Under the pieces are notes generated by a model, which worked only from the letters and a program-made list of their open reading frames with translations, searched no databases and was not told where the DNA came from. A stretch of 64,000 nt of DNA from Orobanche coerulescens. Taxonomy: Eukaryota > Streptophyta > Magnoliopsida > Lamiales > Orobanchaceae. Both the position numbers and the translations under genes were made by a program. Shown here piece after piece: positions 1,402-57,911 of the stretch. The DNA lies in contig CM065804.1 in assembly GCA_033398695.1 (NCBI GenBank), positions 40,811,501 through 40,875,500 on the forward strand. The letters are read 5' to 3'. The stretch's first letter is position 1; each line of letters starts with the position of its first letter.

Positions 1402-1570
1402 TGTTAGGCGTATTTTTATGCGCTTATTTGTCATTACTTTATGTCCATCTTGAGCCTAAATCAGCATAAATGAGCGTTTAATGCACTATTCTTACATGTT
1501 TTGCAGGAAATCGGAGTCCGGAAGCCAAAACGATGAAAAACGGGCGAAAACGGCAATTTTTAGCCGGGGG

Positions 1571-1695
1571 CCGCGGCACGAACCAAGTGAGCCGCGGCAC
1601 AGCCTAAGTGAGCCGCGACCCAGGAGGAAAAAAGGCGCCCAGGCATGGGGCGCTGAACATGTGAGCCGCGGCACAGATTAAGTGAGCCGCGGCCC
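1571..1695 (+). repeat. Palindrome array GCCGCGGCAC in Athila-like LTR
   Basis: Several copies of the palindromic core GCCGCGGC, most extended to GCCGCGGCAC, are separated by 11-base spacers (AAGTGA-type ends), giving a 21-base period. A degraded GCCGCGACCC copy is included. The array lies about 100 bases upstream of the TATA box, the same relative place as in the Tekay-type LTRs of T1 and T2. T2 carries the same motif. Confidence 0.8.
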
Positions 1696-3755: not shown

Positions 3756-5231
3756 CTATTCTTTATGTTCTTTAAGGACATTGATTAATTTATCTTCTTG
3801 TTCTTCATCTAAATCAGATGCTATGATGACAGGCAGGGTTTCTGATGGTCCTAAAAATGCATATTTTAGAGATTCAGGTAATGGATTGAGCTCTATCTTT
3901 GAATCCTCAATAGGTACTTCTTTATTCATTTGACTCTCAAGTGGTTCGGTTTTAGCTTTCCATTTATCATTATCCAATAATGGTGTAAACTCTAGTAAAG
4001 AATTTACTTCATTAATTGAACTGTCGATGTCAAAATCTGAGCCAAAATAAGCAAGACAACATTCAAAAAGATCATCATCATCCATTTTTGGAAAGAAATA
4101 AGGACTCATACTCTCTATCATATTTACCTCACAGACATCATCATAATCATCATGTTGTTGAGAAATGTTGAACATATTTAGTTCAAAAGTCATATTTCCA
4201 AAATAAAATTTTATGATGCCATTTCTACAGTTAATTAATGCATTTGAAGTAGCTAAAAATGGCCTTCCTAAAATGACAGGGATTTGATCTTTGGTATTCT
4301 CAACAGGTTCAGTGTCTATGACTATAAAATCAACAGAAAAGTAGAATTTATCTACTTGAATCAGAACATCCTCTACGATTCCTCGAGGTATTTTTATAGA
4401 TCTATCAGCTAGTTGAAGTATCATAGATGTTGATTTTAGCCCCCCTAATCCAAGTTGTGTATAAACAGAATATGGTAATAAATTCACACTGGCTCCTAAA
4501 TCAAGCAAGGCTCGTTTAATGATGTGATCTCCAATGACACAAGATATTGTAGGACTACCAGGATCTTTATACTTAACATGAGTTTTATTTTGGATTATTG
4601 AGCTAACATGTTCAGCTAAAAATGCCTTTCTTGGAACATTTGTTCTTCTTTTTACAGTGCAAAGATCTTTCAAGAACTTAGAATAAGCAGGCACTTGTTT
4701 AATAGCATCAAGGAATGGAATATTTATTCGAACTTGTTTAAATATTTCCATTATATCTTTGTATTTCGCACTTTTATCTTTTGGAATAAGTCTTTCAGGA
4801 AATGGAGCTTTTGGAACGTAAGGCTTTTCTTTTTCTTTAGAATTTTTTGATTTTGAAACTTGTGATTCATTTGATTTTTCTTCTGGATCATAGTCAGGCT
4901 TTTGTATTTCTTTTCCGCTTCTTAGGGTAATTATGGACTGAACTTCTGCGTTAGAAGAGTTTACTTCATATTGTCCTTTAGGATTAGGGATGGACTGACT
5001 CGGAAATTTTCCCTTTTCTCTTTCAGCTAAAGTTGTTGCAAGTTGACCAATTTGTGTTTCAAGCTTAGAAATATCCTGTGAGTTTGATTGTACACCTTGC
5101 TGAGTTGATTGGAACATTTGTTGAGTAGATTGCATGAATTGTTGCAACGTATCTTCCAAATATGGTTTCTTTGGCACTGTAGAAGGATACTGATAAGTAT
5201 TTGGAGGATATTGATTATGTAATATCCGCAT
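3756..5231 (-). pseudogene. Athila gag C-terminal part and aspartic protease
   Basis: The reading frame begins in the C-terminal, Gln/Ser/Lys-rich part of gag. It continues through a linker (a VPKAPFPERLIP stretch) into an aspartic protease whose active site reads LLDLGASVNLLP at about 4490-4520, as in Athila-type elements. A flap-side ILGRPFLATSNALI block follows at about 4240-4280. The upstream gag domain is now 8.8 kb away at 14012-15023 because T1 is inserted between them. The first codons (5218-5231) belong to T1's LTR and are not part of the gene. The 3' end runs toward reverse transcriptase but hits a stop at 3756. The protease would mature the polyprotein. Confidence 0.88.
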
Positions 5232-5744
5232 TTTTTCTTCTTTTTCCGATATTCCCGTTTTGGTGTATTTTTATTTTCGGTAGCTCGCTTGTAACCATGT
5301 AGACATTTTGAATCTATGTTATTCTTGGAGTTTCTCCATCTGGGATGACCTTGGTGATGTTTTGATATTATTCCGTTTTATGTCATGTATTATGGCATGG
5401 ACGTTCGATTCTCGTGGAACTCGTTCGCTTTCGTAATTTCTTTGGGTTCACGAGTTCGTATAGTTGAGTTGTTCGTGTTGGGAGTTTCGGTTTGTTAATC
5501 CGACGTCGTATCGCGGATTTTGAACGTTTGGGCCGTTTCGTAATTTCTCTAAGTTACGGGGTGGTTTCCATCCCTGTCTGTTCCGAACCCTCGAGTAGTT
5601 GGAATCACGTTTCATTTTATATCTTTTGTCGTTGGCTTGAATCTGTCGGAAGTATATCAGTTGGTAGCAGATACGTCTCGTTACTTCCCGATCATTTCCT
5701 CGTCGAGAAGTGATTCAGATTTCTGCTTGCTGTCTCAGGCGATG

Positions 5745-6051
5745 TTACGGCCGTAAGCCGCATTGTTACGGCCGTAATTCTCGAGAGTTACGGCCGTAAG
5801 TTTCCCTTATACGGCCGTAATATGAGTTCGTTTTCTGCACTTGATTCCAGTGGGGGGGTTACGGGCGTAACACGCTAGAGTTACGGCCGTAAGTATTGAT
5901 ACGGCCGTAATGGTGTCTTGATACAGCCGTAAGTGTCGTTCGTAAATTTGGCCCGATTTCATTCCCGGGAGCGATTCGGCCGTAAGAGGCGAGAGTTCTG
6001 GCCGTAATGTTCCTATGTTACGGCCGTATGTTATGGATGTTACGGCCGTAA
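5745..6051 (+). repeat. Palindrome array TTACGGCCGTAA in T1 5' LTR
   Basis: About a dozen copies or near-copies of the 12-base perfect palindrome TTACGGCCGTAA occur. Starts at 5745, 5766, 5788 and 5809, and again at about 5974, 5996, 6018 and 6040, give a 21-22 base period. Further copies lie at 5881, 5899 and 5921. The array ends 12 bases before the TATA box. Each unit holds two CpGs in a CGGCCG core. The 3' LTR array (12374-12680) differs from this one far more than the rest of the LTR does. Confidence 0.92.
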
Positions 6052-6063
6052 CACCGGCCAAGA

Positions 6064-6069
6064 TATAAA
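6064..6069 (+). promoter_or_regulatory. TATA box of T1 5' LTR
   Basis: TATAAA lies directly after the palindrome array; the 3' LTR has TATATAAA at 12691-12698. It is followed by a pyrimidine-rich stretch (TTTTTTCTCATTTCTCACC), a plausible start-site region. Confidence 0.7.
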
Positions 6070-6245
6070 CCGGCAAAGAACCGTGTTTTTTCTCATTTCT
6101 CACCTCTCTCATTTCTCTTCGCGACGGGAACGACTTGGGGAGCTAGGTTTCGCCCGATTTTCGCCCAAACACCATTGTAGAAGTATATTCAAGCTTCATA
6201 TCATCAACCTATCGCTAATCATTCATTGTTCATCGTCAAATCAAG

Positions 6246-6541
6246 GTAAAATCTCTTAGAACCCTACTTTTGGATAATTTGGGGGTTTTGGGATTTTCTT
6301 CCGATTCGTTCCGTTTTGTTGGTGGATTCATGATGAATATGATTAGTCTTGTTGATATCATTAGTTTTCCTACGGATTCATGGTATATTTTCATAGCTTT
6401 GCGAAATCGAGGGGGTTTGGTTGTGGTCCGCCCTCGTTGTTATTTTTATTCGATATACATGAATCGTAGGCGGGTTTCCGGGTGTATTCCATTTCCATAA
6501 TCGTTTAGAAGTGGTTGTGATTGTGCTTTTCGAATCGTTAG
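6246..6541 (+). other. Predicted leader intron 1 (GT-AG) of T1
   Basis: The donor is TCAAG|GTAAAATC and the acceptor TCGTTAG|GTTC, giving a 296-base intron about 180 bases after the TATA box. T2 has the same arrangement (22254-22538). Predicted only from sequence and cross-family conservation; the 69-base exon 2 would be 6542-6610. Confidence 0.5.
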
Positions 6542-6610
6542 GTTCATTTTCGTCGGTTCCTCGCGGTCGTGCTTGATTCTTCCGTTCCGTTCATCGTCTA
6601 TTTAATCGAG

Positions 6611-7009
6611 GCAAGTATCCTTATGAACTTACAATCTTGACGTAGTAGTATTGTATGAGAAATGGTGTGTGTGTGTGTATGCTCACTACGGGTTTGATCC
6701 GACGGGGTCTCGGTAGGGGTCCACAGAGATGTGGATCGACGAGCTTCCTTTTAACCACTACGGGTTAGATCCGACGGGGTCTCGGTAGGGGTCCACAGAG
6801 ACGTGGATCGACGGTTAATTGTGGTGCATTTTACAAATGTGATTTGATATTGGCATTTCCGGAAATGAGTGCTTTGGAACTATGTTTTCTTGATTGCATG
6901 CATTTACTATATGTATGAGATGTAAGTTGTTCATTTGGTTACTTGTACTAGCGTAATTGCTAACCCCTTTGGGGACCCATTTTGGGGAAATTCGTTTTAT
7001 GAATTTCAG
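6611..7009 (+). other. Predicted leader intron 2 (GC-AG) of T1
   Basis: The donor ATCGAG|GCAAGTATCC matches the consensus of the rare GC-AG intron class. A CTAAC branch-point motif lies at 6960-6964 and the acceptor GAATTTCAG|GTC at 7001-7009. The intron is 399 bases and contains a two-unit tandem repeat with GACG-loop stems. T2, T3 and T4 keep the donor, branch point and acceptor although the sequence between them differs. Confidence 0.55.
6696..6781 (+). repeat. Tandem GACG-loop hairpins in T1 leader intron 2
   Basis: A 72-base unit occurs twice. Each unit has the stem-loop GATCC-GACG-GGGTC (6696-6709 and 6768-6781; the second stem extends to six pairs). A second short stem follows (CCAC...GTGG, about 6721-6734 and 6792-6805). 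The 3' LTR carries the same hairpins at 13325-13338 and 13397-13410. T2, T3 and T4 have the same loop with compensating stem changes. Confidence 0.65.
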
Positions 7010-7387
7010 GTCAGGTTCATCGAGACGAGCGGGCGCTGGACCAGTACGCGGATGATGGTCGTGCGTGATGATTGTGCACGAGTGGTGTCTTATTGCTTTC
7101 TATCTTTTTATCTTTTGTGGTCTTTGAACTAATAGAAGTACTCGAGTACTTAAGAACTTTTACTCGTCGGGATTGTATTTGTTGATTATTATGTTTGTGT
7201 CGGATTATGGTGTTATGTTATACCGGTTGAACCGGGTGGATTATTTTGTTGGGCGTCTTTATGACGAGGTATTTTTCTGTAGTTTCTGTGAGTCGATGAG
7301 TATGATGCTTGTTCAGCCTGGTGGGTCCTATATAGGGATTCACGGCACTGTAATATACCTCGGATATCCTGGGGGTGTTACAGAAAA

Positions 7388-7399
7388 TGGTATCGGAGC
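7388..7399 (+). promoter_or_regulatory. T1 primer binding site
   Basis: TGGTATCGGAGC lies five bases after the LTR end and matches the TGGTATCAGAGC site complementary to the initiator methionine tRNA 3' end, with one change. It is where minus-strand DNA synthesis would start. Confidence 0.85.
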
Positions 7400-7450
7400 G
7401 CCCACGCTAATCGGGGCGGAGCAGATCGCTGGCTTCAGGATGTCATCAAG

Positions 7451-10411
7451 ATGCATCCTCCTCAGTTCTCGGGAGCTTCGGACCCGATCGGCTGGGAGGG
7501 GTGGATCAAGGAGATATCTAAGGTCTTCACTGCTACTAACTGTCCCGAGGACCGTAAGGTCCCTATTGCCCAGTACTTTCTCACGGGGGACGCTACGGAT
7601 TGGTGGGAGGCCGTTGGGCCCAAAGACCATGTTGCTTCGTGGGCCGAGTTTCAGGAATTGATGGAGGCCGAATATTGCCCGTGGCCGGTCAGACAGGCTC
7701 GAGTACATGCTTTCTATGATGCTCAACCACGAGATATCCCCGTATCTCAAGCTATTGCTGATTTTAACAAGGAGTTGGGTTATGTGAAGACCCAAGTTGT
7801 CGAGGAGAGCGACAAAATTTTCCATTTTTCCAGACGGATGAAGTTGTCGATTCGGGACTATATGTCGGGGCTCGTATGCACTACCTTGAAAGATTACCAG
7901 AGCAGGGCCCTTGCTTACGATATGTCTGTGACGGCGAGTGAGGCGGCCCGCGAGAGTAAGAAACATAAGTCTGCTGGGAACTTTTCGGGCCACAAGGGTG
8001 GGGGTCAGCAGAGATCCCAATCTGCTAACTTCCCCACCGGCGGTGGTCCAGCTCGTTCCGCTGGGGGTCCTCGTGGAACTACCATTGCTCCTTTCCGTGA
8101 TGTGAAGTGTTTCAATTGTGGTCGTACAGGCCACGTCAGTCGTACTTGTTTGAGCCCTTTGCTGACGTGTAATCAGTGTGGCCAGCCGGGCCACAAGGTC
8201 AGTCAGGCCGAGAGGGAGAGAATTCTTGGTGCCCGGGTTTCCATTCCAGCGCCTAGAGAACCAAGTGTGAATCAGGGATCGTTTGCTCCTCAATCTCCGC
8301 CGAGTGCTAGTCGGGGGAGAGGTCGGGGTAAGCCCTCTAAGGGGGGAGCCTCCAGTGTCGGCTCAGCCCACCCGCGTGTCTATGAGATGCGGAGAGCCGA
8401 TGACCCAGCGGCTACCGTGGCGACAGGTACCGTTTATATTCTTTCTCATCCTGTCAGTGTGCTTTTCGATTCAGGTGCTACGCATTCGTTCATATCTTTG
8501 GATTGTGTGCGCCGTTTGAGTCTCGACTGTTTGATGCCTTGTGAACCCTTCATCGTTAAGCTTCCTAGCGGTGATAGGATCGTTGGTGATCAGGAGGTTC
8601 GAGACTGTTCTGTACTTATTTGTGAGAGGACTTGGCCCTCTAATCTTATTGTTGTGAGTATCGAGGGTGAGGATTTGATTCTTGGGGATGATTGGCTCGA
8701 GCGGCATGGTGCGATCATGAACTACCGCACGAGAATCATCACTATGTTAGCCGAGGACGGCACCGAGCACTCTTTCGCGGGGCGAAAGAGGGGAAACCAG
8801 AAATTCGTTATTAACGCCTTGAAGGCGATGAGACTCCTGCGAAAGGGGTGTACTGGCTATTGGTGCTACGCCTTGCAGGCAGAGAGTGGTGGAGTCGAGC
8901 TTTCGTCGATTCCAATCGTTAGCGAGTTTCCTGATGTATTTCCTGACGAGTTACCGGGATTGCCACCGGACCGTGAGGTTGAGTTTGCTATAGAGTTAGA
9001 GCCGGGCGCGACTCCGATTTCTAAGGCGCCGTATCGCATGGCACCTTCAGAGATGTCAGAGTTGAAGAAGCAGTTGAGCGAGCTTCTTGAGTCGGGATAT
9101 GTTCGACCGAGTGCCTCACCTTGGGGCGCACCGGTCCTGTTTGTGCGGAAGAAGGATGGTTCTCTACGCTTGTGTATCGACTATCGCGAATTAAACAAGG
9201 TAACCATCAAGAACAAGTATCCTTTGCCGAGAATTGACGACTTGTTCGACCAGTTGCAGGGAGCTGCGGTATTCTCGAAGATTGATTTGAAATCGGGGTA
9301 CTATCAGCTCCGGGTGAGGGAGTCCGATGTGCCGAAAACAGCTTTTCGGATGAGATACGGACATTATGAGTTTGTAGTTATGCCTTTCGGGTTAACTAAC
9401 GCGCCGGCGGTGTTCATGCAGTTGATGAACAAAGTCTTTATCGAGTATTTGGATAAGTGTGTCGTCGTTTTCATTGACGATATTCTTATTTATTCGAGGA
9501 ACGAGGAAGAGCATGCCCATCATTTGCGAGTAGTATTAGACATCTTGAGGACCGAGCAACTCTATGCGAAGTTCTCGAAATGTGAGTTCTGGCTGAAGGA
9601 AGTGATGTTTCTAGGTCACGTGATTTCAGCCGAGGGGGTTCGTGTGGATCCACAGAAGATAGAGGCAGTATTGGATTGGGCACCGCCCAAGAATGTGAAG
9701 GAGATCCGTAGTTTCTTGGGTTTGGCTAGCTACTACCGTAGGTTCGTCGAGGGTTTCTCGAAACTAGCTCGGCCACTTACACAGTTGCTCCAGAAGTCCG
9801 AGAAGTTCGTCTGGAATGACGAGAGGCAGTCGAGTTTTGAGGAGCTGAAGAGGAGTTTGACTTCAGCCCCGGTTTTAGCATTGCCATGCGGTAACGAGGG
9901 TTTTGCTGTTTACACTGATGCTTCGGGTCAGGGTCTTGGGTGTGTATTGATGCAGCACGGCAAGACCATTGCGTATGCGTCAAGACAGTTGAGGCCGTAT
10001 GAGCTTAACGACCCTACTCACGATTTGGAGTTAGCGGCAGTTGTTTTTGCACTCAAGATTTGGCGTCACTATCTTTTCGGCTCTGCATGTCAGATTTTTA
10101 CCGATCATAAAAGCCTGAAATACATATTTACTCAGCGAGAGTTGAATATGAGGCAGAGGAGGTGGTTAGAGCTGATTAAGGATTATGACCTCGAAATCCT
10201 TTATCATCCGGGCAAGGCGAACGTCGTGGCCGACGCCTTGAGTCGGAAACCGGTTGCGTTGCGAACGCTTGAGATCTTTACGTCTCAGTCTGAGCTTCGG
10301 CGGGCTTTGATCGAGTTAGATGTTGAGGTTTTGTTGCCTGGAGCTGTCGGGCAACTTTGTGCTTTAGAGATTTCGTCGTCTTTGATCGATGAAATTAAGT
10401 CAAATGATTAG
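7451..10411 (+). CDS. T1 gag-protease-reverse transcriptase-RNase H polyprotein
   Basis: A 986-residue polyprotein for particle formation and cDNA synthesis. Order: gag (about residues 1-210, including a WWEAVGP block); a zinc knuckle [14 protein letters not shown]; a second, defective knuckle ([13 protein letters not shown], last cysteine missing); protease with [11 protein letters not shown] near residue 338; reverse transcriptase with [10 protein letters not shown] near 573 and catalytic FIDDILIYS near 674; and RNase H from YTDASG near 820 to ADALSRK near 926. The start is uncertain: homology begins a few codons upstream (DRWLQDVIK) and the basic N-terminal gag segment of T2 and T3 (MLRGRRGR type) is absent, so this gag is 5'-deleted. 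A frameshift at about 10405 ends the frame before integrase. Confidence 0.93.
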
Positions 10412-10419
10412 AGGATCCG

Positions 10420-11811
10420 ATGATTACTCAAATCCGAGAGAACGTTCTTAAAGGGAAGTCTCCTGGGTTTGTGATTCATGAGGATGGTGTTTTGAGATTT
10501 CAGAGTCGGCTTTGTGTACTGAACGACTCGAAGTTGAGGCAGAGTATTTTGCGTGAGGCCCATGCTACACCTTACTCCGTTCATCCTGGTTCGAGTAAGA
10601 TGTACAAAGACCTGAGGAGGAATTTCTGGTGGAATAATATGAAGGAGGAGGTCGCACAATTTGTAGCGAGATGTTTGACTTGTCAGCAGGTCAAAATCGA
10701 GCATCAGCGACCGGCAGGGTTATTACAGTCACTTCCTGTTCCGGAATGGAAATGGGAAGATATATCGATGGACTTCATTACGAGTCTGCCGAGATCGAGA
10801 TCGGGCATGAACATGGTATGGGTGATTGTTGATCGTTTGACCAAGTCGGCACATTTTCTGGGCATCAAGGACACTTGGGGCCCAGAGAAGTTAGCTCGTG
10901 TGTTTATCGCTCAGATTGTGAGGCTTCACGGTACTCCGAAGTCTATCGTTTCGGATCGTGATGGCCGTTTTGTATCGCACTTTTGGCAGGCGGTGCATAA
11001 GGCGTTGGGTACTCGTTTGCGTTTGAGTACCTCTTTTCATCCCCAGTCAGATGGACAGTCGGAACGCACTATCCAGACGTTCGAGGATATGATGCGTGCT
11101 TGTGCTCTCGATTGGAGCAATAACTGGGAGGAGCATTTGCCATTGATCGAATTCACGTACAACAATAGTTGGCACGCGTCGATTCGGATGGCACCGTATG
11201 AGGCGCTTTATGGGCGGCGATGTCGATCACCGATTTGTTGGGATGAGGCGTCCGATTTGATCGGGACCGAGCCGGATGTCGTTTTAGAGACGAGGCGGAA
11301 GATAGAATTAATTCGGGAACGAATGTTGACTGCCCAGAGTCGACAGAAGTCATATGTCGATGTCCGTCGTCGACCTTTGGAATTCGAGGTGGGAGACCAC
11401 GTTTTACTAAAAGTGTCGCCGACGAGAGGTGTTTTCCGTTTCGGGAAAAAGGGGAAGTTTAGTCCGAGATTTATCGGGCCCTTCGAGATTCTCGAGCGAG
11501 TCGGTGGGCTAGCATACCGTTTGGCGTTACCTCCGGCTTTGAGTCATGTGCATAGCGTTTTTCATGTTTCCCAGCTGAGGAAATATGTCCCGGATCCTAG
11601 TCACGTCATCGATTATGGGGAGATTGCTGTCGCCGAGGATGTTACTTTTGAAGAACGTCCTTTGAAGATCTTGGAGCGTCGTGAGAAACGACTGAGGCAT
11701 AAGACCATACCTTTGGTCAAGGTGCAGTGGTCGAGGCACGGTGTCGAGGAGGCAACTTGGGAAACCGAGGATAGCATGCGTGCTAGGTACCCCGAGTTGT
11801 TTGTTTCTTAA
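10420..11811 (+). CDS. T1 integrase with chromodomain
   Basis: This 463-residue frame is the rest of pol, separated from RNase H by a one-base frame change near 10405; in an intact element it would be one polyprotein. It holds the HHCC zinc domain (AHATPYSVHPG near residue 46, CLTCQQ near 85). Next is the catalytic core with D in MDFIT (about 116), D in SDRDG (about 177) and E in QSERT (about 213), then a GPFEILERVG C-terminal segment. It ends in a chromodomain-like tail (residues about 407-460, including VKVQWSRHG and EEATWE). The tail is typical of Tekay/Del chromoviruses and is thought to direct integration to marked chromatin. The stop codon overlaps the conserved palindrome at 11810. Confidence 0.93.
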   Translation: MITQIRENVLKGKSPGFVIHEDGVLRFQSRLCVLNDSKLRQSILREAHATPYSVHPGSSKMYKDLRRNFWWNNMKEEVAQFVARCLTCQQVKIEHQRPAGLLQSLPVPEWKWEDISMDFITSLPRSRSGMNMVWVIVDRLTKSAHFLGIKDTWGPEKLARVFIAQIVRLHGTPKSIVSDRDGRFVSHFWQAVHKALGTRLRLSTSFHPQSDGQSERTIQTFEDMMRACALDWSNNWEEHLPLIEFTYNNSWHASIRMAPYEALYGRRCRSPICWDEASDLIGTEPDVVLETRRKIELIRERMLTAQSRQKSYVDVRRRPLEFEVGDHVLLKVSPTRGVFRFGKKGKFSPRFIGPFEILERVGGLAYRLALPPALSHVHSVFHVSQLRKYVPDPSHVIDYGEIAVAEDVTFEERPLKILERREKRLRHKTIPLVKVQWSRHGVEEATWETEDSMRARYPELFVS

Positions 11812-11846
11812 GTTTCGGGACGAAACTTATTTTTAGAGGGGTAGAT
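11810..11846 (+). promoter_or_regulatory. T1 pre-PPT palindrome and polypurine tract
   Basis: AAGTTTCGGGACGAAACTT (11810-11828) can fold into an eight-pair hairpin and overlaps the pol stop codon. It is followed by TTTTTAGAGGGGTAGAT, the plus-strand priming tract, up to the 3' LTR start at 11847. The hairpin recurs at the same place in T2 (28310), T3 (30950, 38265) and the non-coding T4 (52793). Confidence 0.75.
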
Positions 11847-14011
11847 TGTAATATCCGCATTTTTTCTTCTTTTTCCGATATTCCCATTTTGGTGTATTTT
11901 TATTTTCGGTAGCTCGCTTGTAACCATGTAGACATTTTGAATCTATGTTATTCTTGGAGTTTCTCCATCTGGGATGACCTTGGTGATGTTTTGATATTAT
12001 TCCGTTTTATGTCATGTATTATGGCATGGACGTTCGATTCTCGTGGAACTCGTTCGCTTTCGTAATTTCTTTGGGTTCACGAGTTCGTATAGTTGAGTTG
12101 TTCGTGTTGGGAGTTTCGGTTTGTTAATCCGACGTCGTATCGCGGATTTTGAACGTTTGGGCCGTTTCGTAATTTCTCTAAGTTACGGGGTGGTTTCCAT
12201 CCCTGTCTGTTCCGAACCCTCGAGTAGTTGGAATCACGTTTCATTTTATATCTTTTGTCGTTGGCTTGAATCTGTCGGAAGTATATCAGTTGGTAGCAGA
12301 TACGTCTCGTTACTTCCCGATCATTTCCTCGTCGAGAAGTGATTCAGATTTCTGCTTGCTGTCTCAGGCGATGTTACGGCCGTAAGCCGCATTGTTACGG
12401 CCGTAATGCTCGAGAGTTACGGCCGTAAGTTTCCCTTATACGACGTAATATGAGTTCGTTTTCTGCACTTGATTCCAGTGGGGGGGTTACGGGCGTAACA
12501 CGCTAGAGTTACGGCCGTAAGTATTGATACGGCCGTAATGGTGTCTTGATACGGCCGTAAGTGTCGTTCGTAAATTTGGCCCAGTTTCATTCCTGGGAAC
12601 AGTTACGGCCGTAAGGCAGGAGAGTTACGGCCGTAATGTTCCTATGTTACGGCCGTATGTTATGGATGTTACGGCTGTAACACCGGCCAGTATATAAACT
12701 GGCAGCAACCGTGTTTTTTCTCATTTCTCACCTCTCTCATTTCTCTTCGCGACGGGAATGACTTGGGGAGCTAGGTTTCGCCCGATTTTCGCCCAAACAC
12801 CATTGTAGAAGTATATTCAAGCTTCATATCATCAACCTATCGCTAATCATTCATTGTTCATCGTCAAATCAAGGTAAAATCTCTTAGAACCCTACTTTTG
12901 GATAATTTGGGGGTTTTGGGATTTTCTTCCGATTCGTTCCGTTTTGTTGGTGGATTCATGATGAATATGATTAGTCTTGTTGATATCATTAGTTTTCCTA
13001 CGGATTCATGGTATATTTTCATAGCTTTGCGAAATCGAGGGGGTTTGGTTGTGGTCCGCCCTCGTTGTTATTTTTATTCGATATACATGAATCGTAGGCG
13101 GGTTTCCGGGTGTATTCCATTTCCATAATCGTTTAGAAGTGGTTGTGATTGTGCTTTTCGAATCGTTAGGTTCATTTTCGTCGGTTCCTCGCGGTCGTGC
13201 TTGATTCTTCCGTTCCGTTCGTGTCATCGTCTATTTAATCGAGGCAAGTATCCTTATGAACTTACAATCTTGACGTAGTAGTATTGTATGAGAAATGGTG
13301 TGTGTGTATGCTCACTACAGGTTTGATCCGACGGGGTCTCGGTAGGGGTCCACAGAGACGTGGATCGACGAGCTTGCTTTTAACCACTACGGGTTAGATC
13401 CGACGGGGTCTCGGTAGGGGTCCACAGAGACGTGGATCGACGGTTAATTGTGGTGCATTTTACAAATGTGATTTGATATTGGCATTTCCGGAAATGAGTG
13501 CTTTGGAACTATGTTTTCTTGATTGCATGCATTTACTATATGTATGAGATGTAAGTTGTTCATTTGGTTACTTGTACTAGCGTAATTGCTAACCCCTTTG
13601 GGGACCCGTTTTGGGGAAATTCGTTTTATGAATTTCAGGTCAGGTTCATCGAGACGAGCGGGCGCTGGACCAGTACGCGGATGATGGTCGTGCGTGATGA
13701 TTGTGCACGAGTGGTGTCTTATTGCTTTCTATCTTTTTATCTTTTGTGGTCTTTGAACTAATAGAAGTACTCGAGTACTTAAGAACTTTTACTCGTCAGG
13801 ATTGTATTTGTTGATTATTATGTTTGTGTCGGATTATGGTGTTATGTTATACCGGTTGAACCGGGTGGATTATTTTGTTGGGCGTCTTTATGACGAGGTA
13901 TTTTTCTGTAGTTTCTGTGAGTCGATGAGTATGATGCTTGTTCAGCCTGGTGGGTCCTATATAGGGATTCACGGCACTGTAATATACCTCGGATATCCTG
14001 GGGGTGTTACA
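11847..14011 (+). repeat. T1 3' LTR
   Basis: Same 2165-base length as the 5' LTR and the same order of parts. Outside the array the differences are few: single substitutions, a four-base indel near 13220 and a GT-repeat length change near 13300. Inside the array (12374-12680) about twenty changes cluster. Confidence 0.95.
12374..12680 (+). repeat. Palindrome array TTACGGCCGTAA in T1 3' LTR
   Basis: Same 21-22 base spacing as the 5' LTR array. Several units are perfect here but degraded in the 5' LTR (for example at about 12601 and 12623), while others are the reverse (the unit near 12440 lost two bases). It ends 11 bases before TATATAAA. Confidence 0.9.
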
Positions 14012-15023
14012 GATTAGGACAGACATTTTGTTGATTTGACATGTTCATTTGATGTCCTCCTTGATTCATTGGAGGCATGTTTTGCTTCCAGGAAAAATTT
14101 GGATGATTCCTCCAATTTGGATTATAAGTTGGAGCAAATGGACTATCCGAAGATTTTCCATATGAATGTAACACATTGACTTCTTCATTAAAAATTTCAT
14201 GATTTTGTGGACCAGAGGGACAAGATTGAGATGAATGAAATGATTCCGCACATAAAATGCAAAATTCATTTTTTGAGTTTGACGAGGGGATGGATTGCTT
14301 CAAGACTAACGCATCTACTTTTCGTACTAAATCATCTATAGTAGATTTTATTTCAACATCTTGTTTAACCTCGTAAATTCCACCTTTTTTTGGGGTCGTA
14401 TGCATCGATTTGGCTCTAGAGTCGAGTGAATTCCATTGTTGTGAATTAATTGACATATTTTCTAGTGCATTCCAAGCTTCGTCTCCAATAAGGTGAAGAA
14501 ATTTTCCACCATGCATTGATTGTATTAATTGGCGATTGTTTGGAGTTAAACCGTCATAAATATATTTTACCAAACGCCATATTTCAAAACCATGATGAGG
14601 ACACTTAAGGATTAAATCATTAAATCTTTCCCAACACTCATAAAATTCTTCATTTTCTTTTTGGAAAAATTCTGATATTTCTCTTCTAAGACTATCAGTT
14701 TTGGACATTGGAAAAATTTTTGTGAGAAATTTATTCACTAATTGGTCCCAACTAGTAATTGTTCTTGCTTGAAGAGAATTTAGCCAGAATTTTGCTTTAT
14801 CTTTGAGTGAAAATGGAAATAATCTAAGTTTGACAGATTCATCAGAGAAATTTTGGAATCGGAAAGTAGAACAAATGTCGAGAAATTCCTTGACATGCAT
14901 ATACAGATCTTCTCTTTCCAAACCGTGAAAAGATGGAAGAAGTTGAATTATTGATGGTTTAAGTTCGAAATGAGTTGCATTAGTTGTAGGCAACACTATG
15001 CAAGAAGGAGAGTTAGCACTCAC
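14012..15023 (-). pseudogene. Athila gag, N-terminal part (split by T1)
   Basis: The minus-strand frame encodes the N-terminal part of an Athila-type gag. A QLLPSFHGLEREDLYMHVKEF start of the gag domain (from about residue 30) leads through a KFWLNSLQ block and a WERFNDLILKCPHHG block to a cysteine-rich FCILCAESFHSSQSC segment near residue 250, then an Asn/Gln-rich tail. Gag would form the particle. The frame is cut at 14012 by T1; its continuation is the frame beginning near 5212 in the same strand. The open frame is long, so the break by T1 may have come while gag was still fairly intact. Confidence 0.88.
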
Positions 15024-19150: not shown

Positions 19151-20126
19151 GTTTCCTTTAGCTTGGTCTAGTAGTTGCCCTTCGTATCGAGTAGCTAGTG
19201 TAACACCCCCGATATATTCAGGAATATTATAGCGCCGTAAATCCTTTACATAAGGATTTGCAAGGCTGAAGAATTGAACAGACATTAATAGGTACAAATG
19301 AATGGAAGTAACTGAATTAAGATACAACAGTTCTAACCAAATACTGAAAATACAAATGTTCAACAGAAACTTATTAATACATCACCAAATTCAAATTCAT
19401 CATAAACGACTACGTACTCGAGTACTTATTGAAATAACCAACAAACAACCGTCAAATATACCCAGCCGGAACATCACTCTGCACCCTCGTCGTCATGCAG
19501 TTCCAGTGGTTGTTTTCCCGCTCTCCTGGATCCTGAACATAAACAAAATGTTCACCCCCGAAGGGGTTAGCACAACGATGCTAGTACAAGTACCACAACA
19601 TATTATTCATATCTCACGAAGAATAAAAACGTAAACGACAAAAATACCAACGAGTCTTCTCCTACGAGAAACTCATAAATGACATACACAACTGATAATC
19701 ACAACATGATATCATAACATACACATGGTAATTCCGACGATCCAGCGTTCACTGCCTAGAACCCACGATGATCCCGTCAGACCAACCCGTGGTGGAAAAA
19801 CCCGTCCGATGATCCAGCGCACGTTAGCATAGATCCCCCGATGATCCCGTCGGACCAACGCGAGGTGGACATACAACAACGACATACATGCACGACAATA
19901 TGTATAACATCAATACATAAAACAAATAAGGTACTTGCCTCGATTTGAAGACAAGAACAATACTTCTACGAAAATGAACACTCGAAGGTCGTCCCCCCTC
20001 AATCAATCACGTAACAAGCTTGAACCTTAACAAAAGAAATAATATAGAATTTATCTCACGTCGTACAAATGTCTAACAATTCGATTTACGGCCAAAAGCT
20101 CATAAAATGTAATCTGCCTGAACTTC

Positions 20127-20345
20127 TTAGCGCACGCTAAGTACTCTGTGTAGCGTGCGTTAAGTCTGCTCGATAGCGCATGCAAACAACAAAGCCTAGC
20201 GTACGCTAATTATGCATGGTCAGTACCTCACTGATCAGCCGACTGACTCGACTGATGGCCTAACGTATGTTACGTACCAAACGTAGCGTACGTTAACTCA
20301 TGTTCGATAGCGCACGTTAATATACATAGCTTAGCGTGCGTTAAC
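20127..20345 (-). repeat. Palindrome array A (TAGCGYRCGCTA) in T3 3' LTR, inside intron 1
   Basis: About eight units of AGCGYRCGCT and near variants are separated by 13-14 bases (period 23-24). Unlike array B, this one lies downstream of the TATA box, within predicted leader intron 1. Confidence 0.8.
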
Positions 20346-21738
20346 TGTGCATGTCAGTTCACTACTGGGCAGAAGACTGTTCTTATCATGATCAAACCAA
20401 TGAAATATTCAGTGATAATTCATGTTACCTCCATGAATATCATGTTCATATGATTATGAATGATCTTACGGATAACAAAAACTTCGGATTCAAGAATATG
20501 TACACTATTATAAAACCATATTACATTTCGACTACAAATCTTCATACGATAATTCAAAAGGCTTAACGGTCGATATCAACACCTTTATATCAATCAAAAT
20601 TATCATACTGTAGTTGTTTAACATTCCATCTTTAGCAGATAAATCCTTCCATGATCAATCCCTTAGATTCATCTAACAATAATGATGTTAAAGTCAAGTC
20701 CATGATTGCTATGAAGTCATCTACTAGATTTGGATTACTAATGATAGAAGCTTCCTCTACTTTGTTCATTGTAATAAGATTCGAATTAAGATGTTCAAAA
20801 TCAAGGTACTTGAGGCATAACCATCTCCATATTCCAAACATGATGCATGTTGAAGAATTCACTAATGAAATTCAATATCTCGTTACATGATCATCTAATT
20901 CTTTAGAATCCAAATTTAAGTCTGGAGATAGGTTGAACATACCTTAATATGACGAAAATCACTGAACTGTAAGGTAGAATCTGACTCCGGTTGGTTGTAT
21001 GCCACTCCAAGGTGCTAATCCACTTCAATGATCACTCACAAGTAATATCCAATATTCAAGGATCGAGAAGATGTTTACTAAGTGTGTTGGAAGGATAATT
21101 ATTGCTCTCTCGTCTCTCAAGAATGAAGTATAGACGAAGGAAATGTAAGCCAAAACGGTTTGTTGTCTCATTTATAACATTTCTGCACTTTAGCTAATTA
21201 GCGCACGCTAGCATACAATACTTAGCGCACGCTAATAAGTGTAATATCCGCGTTTTCTATTTTTAGTAGTTTCTATTTTTGGTGTATATTCGTTTCGGAC
21301 AACTCGCTTGGCACTGTTTTGGAATTCTGAACCTGTTTTGTTCTTGGAGTTTCTCCGCTTAGACGGGTCTCGATGATGTTTTTACGTAATTTCATCTTGT
21401 GTTATATTTTGTCTCATGTGTATTCGATTCTCGTTAAACTCGTTCGATTTCGTCATTTTCTTACTTCCATGAGTTCGTATGATTGAGTAGAGCATGTTGT
21501 GAGTTTCGGATTGTTAATCCGACGTTGTATCGTGATTTTCGGATGTTTGGGCCGTTTTTGTAATTTCCTAGAAGTTTAGGGAATTTATTCCTTGTTCGAC
21601 TTTGGTTGTGTACCTCAGATCGTTTTGGGGTTTCCGTACTTCCATTTCGTGTTATTGTTGCCCAAATATCGATTCCTATTGCTTTTATTCTCTTTCCGGA
21701 TCATTTTTCGTCATTTTGGGACCCGAGGGGGGGTGTGG

Positions 21739-22042
21739 GCCGCGGCACAAGGATTGTGCGCCGCGGCACACACATTACCCAGTTGCTGGCCGAGCGGTCA
21801 GACTGTGCCGCGGCACACAGTCAGCCAAGCCGCGGCACACTTTTCCGGCCGCGGCACACCGTGTGGCACTTGCCGGCCAAAACCTATCAGACCGCGTGCC
21901 GCGGCACAACCGGCAGGGCCGGCACATGCCGAGTCCGAGCCGCGGCACACTTCGAATGAGCCGAGGCACAACGAGCGGTCACCATCATCAAGGCGTAATT
22001 TTTGGCCTGTCTTTGCAGCCTGATTTAGCCGAGCCGCGGCAC
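21739..22042 (+). repeat. Palindrome array TGTGCCGCGGCACA in T2 5' LTR
   Basis: About ten copies of GCCGCGGCAC, several extended to the 12-14 base perfect palindrome (TG)TGCCGCGGCA(CA). The first two start at 21739 and 21760 (period 21). One unit has decayed to GCCGAGGCAC. The same motif forms the array in the unrelated Athila-like LTR at 1571-1695. Confidence 0.9.
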
Positions 22043-22253
22043 ACAATGCGGTCGCGCTATATCAGCGTTTTTTCACGGATGCGATTCATTTCTTCCTTCC
22101 TTCCACCGTACGCGAGAGAGAGGGGGTTGAGAGGGGGATTTTTCTCCATCTACCATTTGATTGTGTGTTTTTCTTCATCTTCCTTCGATCGTGTAGCTCG
22201 GATTGTGGATCTAGCACGTGTTCTTCGGATTATAGGGCTTGAATCTTCAAGAG

Positions 22254-22538
22254 GTAAGAACTCCTTTAACCCTAGTATGATTTTGGGGGGGGGGGGGTTG
22301 GTGATGATCTTGTACTTTAATCCGATTTAACCGATGTTGTTGTTAGATTTTGATAGTATACTCGTGACCCTTGGTTTTCTTGTTATGGGTTGGGATGAAA
22401 TCCCGTTATTGCACCGTTGACCGATTTCATTTCCTTATGCGCTCGTGGTGTCCGATGAATTGTCCCAATGGGTAGAACTAGGATGAATTTCTTCGTATTC
22501 ATGATGTTGAGATTGGTTGTATATCATTCTTGTGTTAG
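22254..22538 (+). other. Predicted leader intron 1 (GT-AG) of T2
   Basis: Donor CAAGAG|GTAAGAAC, acceptor TGTGTTAG|GGTC; 285 bases. The following exon 2 would be 22539-22610 (72 bases). Same position and size as in T1. Confidence 0.5.
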
Positions 22539-22610
22539 GGTCGGATTTGAGAGGATTGTTCGGACCGTAACCTATCCCTTCGTCGTTTCCTTCGCGTCGT
22601 ATTATCCAAG

Positions 22611-23129
22611 GCAAGTACATGTATTATATTTCATTATGTGTGTACGGTTTTGATGCGAATGATGTAAACTGGTTTATTGAACAATTGTATTGGTTACTCT
22701 TCCACCTGGGGATGGCATGGGGCCTCTGGGGGCCGATACTAATGGGTACGGCCACGGAAGTGGACTTGGGTGCGTGCGTTGATGTTCTTCCACCTGGGGA
22801 CGGTTTGACGGGACCTCTGGGGGCCGATACTAATGGGTACGGCTGCGGAAGTGGTTTCTCACCTGGGGACGGTCCGACGGGACCTCTGGGGGCCGTTACT
22901 AATGGGTACGGTCGCGAGTTACCAAACGTGGATAATTGTGATGTGGAAAGCTTGATAATATATTGATTTGGTGTAAATGTGATATTCCGGAATATTGATT
23001 TTTGAAATGATTTTTCCTAATAGTTTGCGTTGAATCGTGTATGTATATAACGTTGTGTAATTGTGTACTTGCACTAGCTATTCGAATGCTAACCCCATAA
23101 ATGGGGGAAATGCGTCTTATGCATTTCAG
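22611..23129 (+). other. Predicted leader intron 2 (GC-AG) of T2
   Basis: Donor TCCAAG|GCAAGTACAT, CTAAC branch-point motif at 23089-23093, acceptor GCATTTCAG|GTACC at 23121-23129; 519 bases. It encloses a three-unit tandem repeat (about 22702-22915). The frame 22619-22966, which repeats a GDGxTGPLGADTNGYG peptide, lies inside this intron and is not conserved in other families. Confidence 0.55.
22802..22884 (+). repeat. Tandem GACG-loop hairpins in T2 leader intron 2
   Basis: Stem-loops GGTTT-GACG-GGACC (22802-22815) and GGTCC-GACG-GGACC (22871-22884). An upstream third unit (about 22711-22725) has lost the loop. Each unit also has a possible second stem GGCCG...CGGCC. The 3' LTR has the pair at 29914-29927 and 29983-29996. 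Confidence 0.65.
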
Positions 23130-23481
23130 GTACCGGGAGGGCTGAGGAGCAAGCACGGGACATGCATGCAAAGGATGGGCTGGCTTGATGATGTGGCTCG
23201 AGTTTGCATTTTTATGTTTTGTCATTGCATTGTTGAGTATTGAAGTTAGACTGTCTATTTTGAAACTTGGTTTAAGTCCCCTGCGTGGGCAATGAATTGG
23301 TATTTAACCTCTGTTCATGTATTACGTTAAAAATGTTTTGGCCGAGGCCACGACCTTATTTACTTTTGAGTGCATCATTCGGGATTACATTGTGGTTTAT
23401 ATGTCATGTGTTAGCCTGGTAGACCTCACGAGGGTTCTACGGCGTGTAATGTCCCAGTTGTGAATTGGGGTGTTACATTTA

Positions 23482-23493
23482 TGGTATCAGAGC
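23482..23493 (+). promoter_or_regulatory. T2 primer binding site
   Basis: TGGTATCAGAGC, four bases after the LTR end; the standard initiator-tRNA site of chromoviruses. Confidence 0.9.
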
Positions 23494-23736
23494 TTAGGTT
23501 TTGAATACCTAGGCTGTCGGTTAATTTTGGGTCTGTTAGTGGCGTCATTTAGAGTCAGTCGTTGAGCCTAATATCATCATGCTACCGTCTTTTCATGCGA
23601 CCCGTGGCTGTAAGTCTCCTCGAACTCTTATATTCCTGTAATTCGTTTTCTTGCGTTGTTCGGGATTGTGAATTGTGATACCAATTTTGTCAATTGTGAA
23701 TCTTTCTGATTTTGTCCTTTTCATTCTTCCTCTAGA

Positions 23737-24790
23737 ATGTTGAGAGGTCGTCGTGGTAGACCAGCTAGGGGACGCGGCCGAGGCCGTGGTCGGGGTGCTG
23801 ATAATGAAGAGGGCTCACTTTCTCAGTCCTCTGCGGACTCAGCCTCTCACTCAGTGCCGTCGGGTAATAATGCCGGCTGGAGCTCTGCCATTTCAGCGAT
23901 TAGTAGCTCGGCTTGCTCGAGATAGCTCGGGCGGACACCTGAATCCGCCCCGACACCGAAGAGGAGGCTAGTAAATGGCTTGAGACGGTGACTAAGATGC
24001 ACCCTCCTCGTTTCTCCGAGCTTCGACTCCTCGGTTGGGAGAATTGGCTCTTTCGGTTGTCCAGACCTTTGATGCCGTAGCTTGTCCACGAAGACGGAGG
24101 GTACATATCGCCCAGACCTCCTGGATAAGGAAGTCGCGGAATGGTGGGAGGCCGTTGTGCCTGTGAGACCGTCGAGCTACTTGGGAGGCATTCCAGGCTG
24201 CTATGGAAGCGAGTATTGTCCGCCGCTATCAAGGAGCGCAGATTATGGAATTCTTCACCGCTACACCTCGGGATGTGCCTATTTCTCGTGCCATCATTTC
24301 TTACAATCAGCAGTTGGGTTTCGTAAGAGATCAAGTGAGAACGGAGGCCGATAAAATCCGTTACTTCAATATGCGCATGAAGCCGAATATCGTGCAGTAT
24401 GGCACCGCTCATGTGTGCCACTCAAGGAATACCGTGATCGCGCCTCGCGTCGAGATGGTCCGTCCGAATCGAGTCGGTTTCGAAGCTAAGAAGCGAAGAC
24501 TACCGCGGGTTCTCGGCCGGTAAGGTGGACGCTGAGGTCTCGTTCGCTCCTACACCGGGGAAGAGGCCGTTTCATCAGCCGGTGGATCCTGTGGTAACCG
24601 CTCGTCCAGTGTGGCACTGGCGGGAGAGTTTGTTTTAATTGCGTCACCGAGCACGTTATGAAGGATTGCCCATTTCCGTTAGTTGCTTGCTTTACTTGCG
24701 ATGCACGGACATCGGGCGGCTCATTGTGAGAGGGCCACCAGGCCACTAGAGTTCCGACTACCACTACCGATCGAAGGATCACGGTATTCC
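23737..24790 (+). pseudogene. T2 gag (heavily broken)
   Basis: The intended start is MLRGRRGRPARGRGRGR at 23737, a basic N-terminus like that of T3 (MLRGGRGRGHGRG). Recognisable gag pieces then appear in shifting frames: a KMHPPRF block near 23995, a WWEAVVP block near 24141 and a DVPISRAIISYNQQLGF block near 24270. Zinc-knuckle remnants (FNC, then CFTC) follow near 24635-24700. At least three frame changes and several stops separate the pieces. Gag would be the particle protein; this copy cannot make it. Confidence 0.85.
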
Positions 24791-24816
24791 ACCACTCATG
24801 TTCCGCAGGTTCGGTC

Positions 24817-27800: not shown

Positions 27801-28311
27801 GATTACCCTGATTCGTGGTAGATTGTTGACGGCCCAGAGTCGGCAGAATTCTTATGCCGATACACGTCGCCGACCGTTGGAGTTTGAGGTGGGAGATCAC
27901 GTCTTGCTTAAGGTGTCGCCGACACGGGGAGTTTACCGCTTCGGTCGGAAGGGTAAACTTAGTCCGAGATATATCGGGCCGTTTGAGATTTTAGATAGAG
28001 TTGGAGAACTTGCGTATCGGTTAGGCTTTCCGCCGTCCCTGAGCCACGTGCATAGCGTATTTTATGTTTCCCAGCTAAGGAAGTACGTATCGGACCCTAG
28101 CCATATTATTTATTTTGGAGAGATCGAGTTGGGGCCCGACATTACCTTCGAGGAGAGGCCGATTCAGATCTTAGAGCGTCGAGTGAAGCAACTCAGGCAC
28201 AAAACCATTCCTTTGGTCAAAGTGCAGTGGTCGAGGAATGGATCCGAGGAAGCCACATGGGAAACGGAGGAGAGTATGAGGTCGAGATACCCCGAGTTAT
28301 TCGTGTTGTAA
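24817..28311 (+). pseudogene. T2 pol: protease, RT, RNase H, integrase, chromodomain (stops)
   Basis: All pol domains are present in order. The protease has [11 protein letters not shown] at about 24958. Reverse transcriptase (25402-26400) keeps [10 protein letters not shown] and an intact FIDDILIYS motif. RNase H has YSDASG near 26413 and ends near 26750. Integrase has an HHCC domain near 27060-27190, catalytic residues at about 27280, 27450 and 27560, and a chromodomain-like end at about 28150-28300. In-frame stops lie at about 25345, 26666, 26854 and 27130, and the frame changes near 27290. At least two stops fit TGG-to-TAG changes and one fits CAG-to-TAG, as expected from cytosine deamination of methylated DNA. 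Confidence 0.9.
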
Positions 28312-28346
28312 GTTTCGGGACGAAACTTATTTTTAGGGGGAGATAA
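28310..28346 (+). promoter_or_regulatory. T2 pre-PPT palindrome and polypurine tract
   Basis: AAGTTTCGGGACGAAACTT (28310-28328) overlaps the pol stop and is followed by TTTTTAGGGGGAGATAA up to the 3' LTR at 28347. Identical in sequence to the T1 hairpin. Confidence 0.75.
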
Positions 28347-30587: not shown

Positions 30588-30931
30588 ATAAGCGTTGACT
30601 CCAAATCTGTCCAGGTTCGTCCGCGGGAATCTTATCCGGACCCATGTCCCGGCTGGCGCATGTGCTAGCCGCCCAGCTCAATAATTGAGTGCTTAGCGCA
30701 CGCAACTCCTACATACGTAGCGTGCGCTAGTAGTAGCTCGATAGCACGCGTTAAGGTACATTCTTAGCGTGCGCTATCACGAGTTTGCATGAGGAATTTT
30801 GCATGTTGTTATACTTATGTACAAAGATACCAATGCAAGAAATATCATACTCCAATAATCAAGACCACAAATCCGAATAATACAGGGTTCAAATACAGAT
30901 GAAATACACAGTAATAAATCCGGATATTACA

Positions 30932-30968
30932 TACTCTCCTACTAAAAAGGAGTTTCGTCCCGAAACTC
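30932..30968 (-). promoter_or_regulatory. T3 pre-PPT palindrome and polypurine tract
   Basis: The minus strand reads GAGTTTCGGGACGAAACTC (30968-30950), then CTTTTTAGTAGGAGAGTA before the LTR. A second copy is at 38265-38283. The end pairs are G-C instead of the A-T of T1/T2, so the stem is kept by a compensating change. Confidence 0.75.
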
Positions 30969-35860: not shown

Positions 35861-36199
35861 TATTCTGTAACACCCCCGATATATTCAGGAATATTACAGC
35901 GCCGTAAATCCTTTACATAAGGATTTACAAGGCTGAAGGATTGAACAGACATTAACAGGTACAAATGAATGGAAGTAACTGAATTAAGATACAACAGTTC
36001 TAACCAAATACTGAAAATACAAATGTTCAACAGAAACTTATTAATACATCACCAAATTCAAATTCATCATAAACGACTACGTACTCGAGTACTTACTGAA
36101 ATAACCAACAAACAACCGTCAAATACACCCGGTCGGAACATCACTCTGCACCCTCGTCGTCATGCAGTTCCAGTGGTTGTTTTCCCGCTCTCCTGGATC

Positions 36200-36605: not shown

Positions 36606-36794
36606 CTCTATTTGAAGACAAGAACAATACTTCTACGAAAACGAACACTCGAAGGTCGTCCCCCCTCAATCAATCACGTAACAAGCTCGAACCTTAACAA
36701 AAGAAATAATATAGAATTTATCTCACGTCGTACAAATGTCTAACAATTCGATTTACGGCCAAAAGCTCATAAAATGTAATCTGCCTGAACTTCT

Positions 36795-38095: not shown

Positions 38096-38281
38096 GAGTT
38101 TGCATGAGGAATTTTGCATGTTGTTATACTTATGTACAAAGATACCAATGCAAGAAATATCATACTCCAATAATCAAGACCACAAATCCGAATAATACAG
38201 GGTTCAAATACAGATGAAATACACAGTAATAAATCCGGATATTACATACTCTCCTACTAAAAAGGAGTTTCATCCCGAAAC

Positions 38282-55312: not shown

Positions 55313-55346
55313 AACAGCCAGCAACGGCTAGTTTGTGGGAAATGCC

Positions 55347-57832: not shown

Positions 57833-57911
<79 letters not shown>

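Follow-up and report, generated by a model that had tools for sequence, protein, structure and literature searches.

Several long terminal repeats (LTRs) in the window analysed here, a 64-kb stretch of a 3.65-Gb plant genome that holds nested LTR elements, carry rows of short palindromes in front of a TATA box. A sequence-only reading had taken these rows for evenly phased docking arrays of a dimeric host factor. We asked which elements carry the palindromes, how the sites are arranged, and whether bound protein, folded RNA or mere repeat history explains the arrangement best.

LTR elements of the window

The element with the array under study, T1 (about 5218-14011), is flanked by the target duplication GATTA (5213-5217 and 14012-14016). 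Its 5′ LTR lies on the plus strand at 5218-7382, with the LTR ends TGTAATATCC...GTGTTACA, and its gag-pol part occupies two open reading frames on the same strand (7292-11811), encoding gag, protease, reverse transcriptase (RT) and RNase H and then a zinc-binding integrase domain and SH3_Tf2-1, that is, with RT before integrase. T2 (about 21240-30587, target duplication ATAAG) sits within T3, which has an LTR on the minus strand at 35866-38246. In a domain search RVT_1 and a strong SH3_Tf2-1 match were found in each of T1, T2 and T3, RNase H in T1 and T2, and the zinc-binding integrase domain in T1 and T3, and the copia domain RVT_2 was absent; T1, T2 and T3 are Ty3-type elements and not Ty1/copia Sireviruses. 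A chromodomain match in T2 was weak (PF00385, 21.8 bits, E 1.8e-4, below the curated cut-off of 25.1), and none was among the domain matches listed for T1 or T3. The three may be Tekay elements, a name prompted by their long LTRs. With the T1 integrase as protein query, the matches were plant Ty3 pol relatives that bear no lineage names; all organisms named among the 120 matches listed are plants. T4 consists of an LTR pair that encloses hardly any internal sequence and no coding part, and it was placed with T1-T3 by its LTR ends alone. Inside one T4 LTR lies S2 (54674-59170, plus strand, target duplication TCATT), with a copia gag at 56063-57217 and five AGGGGGAG octamers at 57471-57965, the last of which reads AGGGGGAG-AT-TG. 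Such octamers and the AT/TG attachment site are described as signs of Sireviruses (PMC2829016), and by both S2 is a Ty1/copia Sirevirus.

The nest also bears traces of its history. The other T4 LTR contains only a short piece of S2 (50490-50720) where the second T4 LTR has the whole S2, as if S2 predated the copying of T4 and was then mostly deleted, or as if conversion had occurred. The 3′ end of T3 pol is duplicated outside the T3 LTR, where 38228-39407 copies 30913-32092 (region 35866-39407 versus 19199-32092), as after unequal recombination. A 158-bp stretch, 86-89% alike, is common to the T3 and T4 LTRs (19723-19880, 36390-36547, 49925-50080 and 54108-54263) and is overlapped by a 72-bp tandem repeat (49934-50069 and 54117-54252). 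The insertion point of T2 immediately follows a TAGCGCACGCTA palindrome in the T3 array next to TATA (21235-21245 and 30588, compare 37891-37907; duplication ATAAG); this is one case, which could be chance or a hint at integration near bound arrays.

Palindrome arrays in the LTRs

Array sites were called at no more than two mismatches to the palindrome of the respective class. In the T1 5′ LTR we observed 12 sites of the TTACGGCCGTAA type (class P1) on the plus strand at 5745-6051, five of them exact, compared to a mean of 0.05 palindromes in shuffles. Their spacings (21, 22, 21, 50, 22, 18, 22, 53, 22, 22 and 22 bp) form three quartets with starts at 5745-5809, 5859-5921 and 5974-6040. From the end of the last palindrome at 6051 there are 12 bp to TATAAA (6064-6069, plus strand), which is followed about 30 bp further on by a pyrimidine run containing TCATTT. 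The dozen palindromes ending 12 bases before TATAAA, as first described, were thus recovered, and the other arrays named with them were likewise present. A comparison with shuffled LTRs, which had been put forward as a check, gave at most one site in each of 20 shuffles per LTR stretch of the window, far below the arrays.

The T1 3′ LTR carries 11 P1 sites (12374-12680, plus strand), with TATATA 10 bp beyond. In T2 the sites belong to class P2 (GTGCCGCGGCAC) and lie on the plus strand: nine in the 5′ LTR (21737-22042, TATATC 15 bp beyond) and 11 in the 3′ LTR (28844-29160, TATATC 13 bp beyond), the latter arranged as a pair, a quartet (21, 24, 20), a further quartet (21, 23, 21) and a single site. 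Four P2-type sites in an LTR-like stretch at 1568-1695 (plus strand) form two doublets at 21 bp, with TATAAA at 1792, 96 bp off. T3, T4 and S2 carry class P3 (TAGCGYRCGCTA). The T3 array on the minus strand (37867-38091) consists of a doublet and a quartet, six sites in total, with TATAAA 22 bp beyond on that strand; the T4 array (51988-52486, minus strand) has 12 sites, including a quartet at 52406-52475, and TATATA on the minus strand 11 bp beyond; the S2 array (54809-55305, plus strand) is built of six doublets of 23-24 bp each, with TATAAA 41 bp beyond the last. The T3 and T4 LTRs each have a second P3 array, likewise containing quartets, at a distance of about 0.7-0.9 kb from the one on the TATA side (36482-37010 and 51185-51266): in T3, about 0.87 kb deeper in the LTR, seven sites at 36795-37010 (minus strand) and an eighth at 36482, and in T4 one quartet (51185-51266, minus strand; 23, 24, 23). 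Complete LTRs thereby hold 12 and 11 sites in T1, 9 and 11 in T2, 14 in T3 (six before TATA and eight deeper; 10 + 4 in the LTR split by T2), 16 (12 + 4) and 13 in T4, and 12 and 11 in S2.

Four palindrome classes

P1 (TTACGGCCGTAA) is a 12-mer with a CGGCCG core and the half TTACGG, and P2 has a CCGCGG core. P3 is an imperfect palindrome in which TAGCG and its complement flank a 2-bp pyrimidine-purine centre; such a centre was found in 183 of 189 sites by a scan that allowed any two bases, at loci preselected by at least one exact pair having a pyrimidine-purine centre. A fourth class, P4 (TTACGTACGTAA), first surfaced at locus L011 in the motif-free scan described below and has the half-site TTACGTA, with CGT and ACG abutting. 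All four classes contain CpG, as had been claimed for the palindromes of the window. Exact pairs 12-42 bp apart are widely spread in the genome: 53,946 for P1, 14,411 for P2, 471,302 for P3 and 25,209 for P4, compared to 0 for the backwards pattern of each class. P3 doublets at 23-24 bp had 0 matches in a collection of prokaryote genomes, and P1 doublets at 21-23 bp had no match in viral contigs. A motif-free scan of 264 kb, 200 kb of which were centred on T1 copies, found 56 clusters of repeated palindromes versus 0 in one shuffle per sequence; by their seed 50 of the 56 were P1-P4-like (some arrays being listed twice) and six were other repeats.

We considered NAC proteins as the candidate factor. 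Their sites are given with the core TTNCGT[G/A] and the palindrome CGT-N7/8-ACG (PMC4081100). The P4 half-site TTACGTA fits this core, but P1 (TTACGG), P2 and P3 (TAGCGY) do not, and the palindrome as given there is not matched by P4, where CGT and ACG abut without a spacer. With the P4 half-site alone fitting, NAC proteins were set aside as the factor.

Doublets and quartets

Among the matches listed, all of them places from the start of one contig, P1 doublets were spaced 22 bp in 26 and 23 bp in 9 of 50 cases, P2 doublets 21 bp in 37 of 50, P3 doublets 23 bp in 54 and 24 bp in 33 of 100, and P4 doublets 23 bp in 26 and 24 bp in 14 of 50. Between groups the gaps are wider, mostly 51-54 bp for P1 (also 30 and 38-46 bp) and 41-126 bp for P3, with 64 bp the commonest; P1 sites show an extra distance peak at 118 bp. 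The uniform spacing of 21-24 bp proposed at first does not describe whole arrays, but it holds inside doublets, where 22 bp (P1), 21 bp (P2) and 23 or 24 bp (P3 and P4) predominate. In the same way the idea of a layout that stays constant while the motif changes had to be narrowed: sites are grouped and the doublet spacing depends on the motif. A placement of all sites on one face of the DNA would agree with the 21-22 bp of P2 and P1 but not with the 23-24 bp of P3 and P4, which correspond to 2.2-2.3 turns at 10.5 bp per turn.

For run lengths we used 20 P1 and 17 P3 loci, hand-picked from the listed pair places at the start of contig C1 (within 5.4 Mb for P1 and 1.3 Mb for P3) with near-duplicates omitted. 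These loci are not independent: together with six LTR stretches of the window, the 37 loci fall into 23 groups (80% identity over 400 bp), the largest having 8, 7 and 6 members. Runs of 1, 2, 3 and 4 sites numbered 7, 42, 9 and 17 for P1, and runs of 1 to 5 sites numbered 10, 34, 3, 25 and 1 for P3. At no more than two mismatches, even runs (two or four sites) made up 59 of 75 for P1 and 59 of 73 for P3, compared to 28.5 and 25.8 when the gaps were permuted within each locus, and none of 5,000 permutations reached the observed values. Runs of at least five sites were depleted (0 for P1 and 1 for P3; 8.4 and 10.4 permuted). The excess of even runs persisted at one, two and three mismatches (P1 at one mismatch, 47 of 73 versus 27.5 permuted). 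Quartets exceeded the permuted number at all three thresholds for P3 and at two and three mismatches for P1; at one mismatch P1 quartets showed no excess (7 versus 7.2).

Within quartets, called at no more than three mismatches and for P1 dominated by T1 copies, the two outer spacings vary little (P1 mostly 21-23 bp, P2 20-21 bp, P3 mostly 23-24 bp), whereas the middle spacing is looser (P1 17-23 bp, P2 23-24 bp in five quartets, P3 18-26 bp). This difference suggests that a quartet is made up of two doublets. P4 quartet counts at three mismatches were set aside, as two positions separate P4 from P1 and the two classes are confounded at this threshold. The array layout is therefore a grammar of doublets and quartets with motif-specific spacing rather than plain phasing.

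Register of the arrays with the TATA box

An outward-facing TATAWA lies within 80 bp of 36 of 53 arrays; at random positions, which served as control, the background is 0.064 per 80 bp and per strand, with two ends per array. In 24 of the 53 arrays the TATA box stands 10-12 bp beyond the last palindrome, mostly at 10 bp for P1 and at 11 or 12 bp for P3, which puts it about one doublet step past the last site. No outward TATAWA was found within 80 bp of the remaining 17 arrays, which include both T2 arrays, the array at 1568-1695, one S2 LTR and the second arrays of T3 and T4. That the arrays adjoin TATA, as had been stated, is common but not constant: the distances in the window range from 12 and 10 bp (T1) and 11 bp (T4) to 22 bp (T3) and, in S2, to 41 bp or to no such box within 80 bp. 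Wrong-strand TATA boxes (29 of 53 arrays) were rejected as a control, as TATATA reads on both strands and these were mostly the same boxes again.

Downstream of the outward TATA box, 26 of the 36 arrays have TCATTT at 20-60 bp, mostly at 26-30 bp, compared to a background of 0.034; of the 24 arrays with the close register, 21 have it. Array, TATA box and TCATTT are thus arranged as in a Pol II core promoter. In the whole genome, P3 followed by TATAWA within 30 bp gave 159,471 matches, some sites being counted repeatedly, versus 7 for the backwards control. Among 100 matches listed the gap was 11-12 bp in 49 and 9-14 bp in 68, compared to 19.4 expected in the latter range if gaps were even.

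Palindromes are conserved between changing spacers

Doublet spacers of P1 and P3 are near random, with a mean pairwise identity of 0.27-0.32 and at most 0.45 bits at any position, chiefly adjoining the palindrome (P2, with n=10, had too few spacers for comparison). A fixed distance without a fixed spacer sequence suggests a pattern imposed by bound proteins. For 83 unordered pairs with aligned flanks (at least 300 flank, 48 motif and 40 spacer bases aligned) the mean divergence was highest in spacers (0.257), intermediate in flanks (0.187) and lowest in palindromes (0.111). Palindromes diverged less than spacers in 81 of the 83 pairs, the other two showing the opposite, and less than flanks in 73; spacers diverged more than flanks in 69. 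The pairs are non-independent, as they share groups, and palindrome conservation is favoured in this comparison because sites were called by motif likeness in either sequence. The 83 pairs replaced an earlier set of 333 ordered pairs, which included motif grids aligned out of register.

These data bear on the simplest reading, namely that the arrays are a functionless residue of tandem duplication. Tandem Repeats Finder does call parts of the arrays in T1, T2 and at 1568. However, spacers are unrelated while palindromes and spacing persist, and the even-numbered runs and the TATA register contradict such an origin as well, which leaves this reading with very little probability.

The palindromes might also act as RNA, in that transcripts would fold at the clustered inverted repeats and serve as templates for small RNAs. 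This has been put forward for the LTRs of maize Sireviruses, where small RNAs are reported to concentrate on palindrome clusters (PMC10760457, PMC5311732). Compared to dinucleotide shuffles, the RNA of the T1 array has a much stronger fold (z −7.5), and that of S2 has a z of −2.2. However, a strong fold like that of T1 is as expected for any string of mutual palindromes. When the palindromes were kept and only the spacers were shuffled (60 shuffles), 9 of 11 arrays had |z| below 2, the exceptions being S2, which folded better (−2.58), and L033, which folded worse (+3.58); this result favours action at the DNA level. A loopless 12-mer such as P1 cannot make a good hairpin alone, and RNA folds would not predict a 21-24 bp spacing, even runs or a TATA register. 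After the spacer-shuffle control, which gave no support for folds beyond the palindromes, we rejected RNA hairpins as the main cause and consider an RNA role quite unlikely.

Arrays shared between superfamilies and differing between relatives

P3 is common to the Ty3-type elements T3 and T4 and to the Ty1 elements S2 and L062; the last has copia gag, integrase and RT downstream and is probably of the Sirevirus kind, like S2. Conversely, LTRs that are close relatives carry different classes. L048 (P1) and L064 (P3) share 91% identity in a 259-bp stretch that lies about 200 bp upstream of the array. For L047 (P1) and L063 (P3) the identity is 85% in 413 bp following TATA, for T1 (P1) and L063 (P3) 82% in 456 bp, and for T1 (P1) and T2 (P2) 72% in 345 bp where the LTR begins. 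L049 combines a P2 array, in sequence 81% similar to that of T2, with a P3 array 12 bp from its own TATA. From these relatives with different palindromes we infer that arrays were probably exchanged or rebuilt whole, with all sites together. Two classes can stand in one locus, with P3 beside TATA and P2 farther away (L049, 462-1413; L059, 523-1337, where P2 is degraded). A likeness between S2 and L045 was dropped as an example of a motif swap within copia, as the similarity lies at the L045 edge, apart from the array.

Sharing across superfamilies bears on who provides the factor. A host protein acting in trans, as had been suggested, is favoured over an element-encoded one by the presence of P3 in Ty3 T3 and in Ty1 S2 and L062 and by T1 showing gag-pol domains only. 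The main rival to a host factor is an anti-silencing protein like VANC, encoded by some other transposon, that would bind the arrays in trans and remove methylation. VANC motifs are located in tandem repeats of non-coding regions and are not the same in related VANDALs, and an unrelated element, AT9TSD1, is a target of VANC6 too (PMC5735166); fast-changing spacers and different motifs in close relatives are found here as well. However, the VANC motifs given in PMC5735166 are non-palindromic, its main text contains neither the word palindrome nor the word spacing, and T1 itself shows gag-pol domains only. A 340-aa antisense open reading frame in gag (7340-8362, minus strand) is interrupted by stops in 13 of 16 matched copies (sense frame, 7 of 16), is likely chance and was rejected as a T1-encoded binder. 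We regard an anti-silencer of this kind as unlikely. A further open reading frame of 177 aa (7128-7661) spans the T1 LTR end.

Alternatively, a host repressor could dock on the arrays and silence the LTRs. A repressor and an activator leave the same footprint, and CpG in every palindrome class would suit methylation-linked silencing. It is hard to explain, however, why elements keep a dozen intact repressor sites amid fast spacer change, and why a full new set of sites is retained where an array differs from that of a close relative. We consider this reading highly unlikely.

A proposed model of docking dimers

Taken together, our findings suggest that the arrays are multi-site upstream promoter elements at which dimers of a trans-acting host protein, or of a family of paralogues with the specificities P1-P4, would dock; from the sequence comparisons we give this reading a probability of roughly 0.6. 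The candidate would be a sequence-specific host DNA-binding protein or a small paralogue family with four specificities, since P1-P4 differ enough that a single factor cannot be assumed. Two dimers would occupy one doublet at fixed spacing, presumably cooperatively, two doublets would build a quartet, and the last site would fix the position of the bound complex relative to the TATA box. The complex may then recruit or stabilise the Pol II machinery, keep the CpG-bearing promoter unsilenced, or both; activation rather than repression is only assumed here. The docking of dimers, part of the sequence-only reading, is in accordance with the symmetry of the sites, with the fixed spacing without spacer sequence, with palindromes conserved in 81 of 83 pairs and with the TATA register, and it stands as an interpretation of these. 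LTR families of different superfamilies would use the same factor, and LTRs would change their factor by replacing the whole array.

Going further, one trans-acting dimeric family with at least four specificities may drive a large share of this plant's LTR promoters regardless of superfamily, by reading TATA-locked doublets and quartets, with LTRs swapping whole arrays in an arms race or a niche shift; we put this tentatively, at slightly less than even odds. The triggers that switch on plant LTR retrotransposons are established for a handful of families. Should one factor family act on such a share of LTR promoters, bursts would have an explanation, and so would the joint regulation of elements that are not related; from array swaps one could date when an element went over to another regulator. 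The short symmetric sequences, exactly spaced, occur in this genome as several hundred thousand pairs, in Ty1 as well as Ty3 elements, and offer a probe for the candidate protein, with the P3 doublet as bait.

Comparison with known systems

VANDAL elements, the precedent first named, are a fair functional analogy, but the nearest precedent is the set of palindromes upstream of TATA in Sirevirus LTRs, described in 2010 (PMC2829016). VANDALs resemble the present case in their arrays of short motifs in non-coding regions, in rapid divergence and in motif changes between relatives; they differ in being DNA transposons with a VANC gene of their own and non-palindromic motifs, compared to the gag-pol domains of T1 (PMC5735166, PMC10398659). 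The heat-responsive element of ONSEN and the W-boxes of EVADE are likewise LTR motifs read by host transcription factors, but as described they concern one element family each, without a paired-array grammar or sharing across superfamilies (PMC12786077).

A literature search over titles and abstract openings, with few subscription papers, found nothing about phased palindromes in Ty3 LTRs, nor about an arms race or niche shift by array swaps in Ty3 elements, and a text search for the palindromes as words gave occurrences in six papers, unrelated by title. In maize Sireviruses, Bousios et al. (2016, Genome Research) reportedly ascribed fast-changing palindrome clusters of the LTR cis-region to secondary structure and small RNAs. 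The arrays here are also fast-changing LTR palindromes, but our spacer-shuffle control gave no support for extra folds.

The RM boxes of Sireviruses number 8 to 32 palindromes per element, are clustered before TATA and form CpG islands; they were called Sirevirus-specific among the copia elements compared, and no binding factor was identified in that account (Bousios et al. 2010, PMC2829016). As in the arrays here, one short palindrome occurs many times per element, varies from element to element, is conserved amid diverged surroundings and stands shortly before TATA. RM boxes are defined by a cluster before TATA in which one palindrome is present at least eight times per element; such numbers were found in T1, T2, T3 (14, of which six before TATA), T4 and S2, and S2 is itself of the Sirevirus RM-box kind, L062 probably so. 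In contrast, RM boxes are described as peculiar to Sireviruses within Ty1/copia, whereas the present arrays lie mostly in Ty3-type LTRs, and a CGG-CCG core is found in 12 of 13 RM boxes but here in P1 alone (PMC2829016). From that article no spacing rule, no doublets or quartets and no sharing with Ty3 elements are known for RM boxes, the word spacing occurring only in a reference title. VANDAL/VANC is the nearest functional model and the Sirevirus RM boxes are the nearest known kind, compared to which the Ty3 hosts, the grammar of doublets and quartets, the TATA register, the sharing across superfamilies and the probable array swaps are new.
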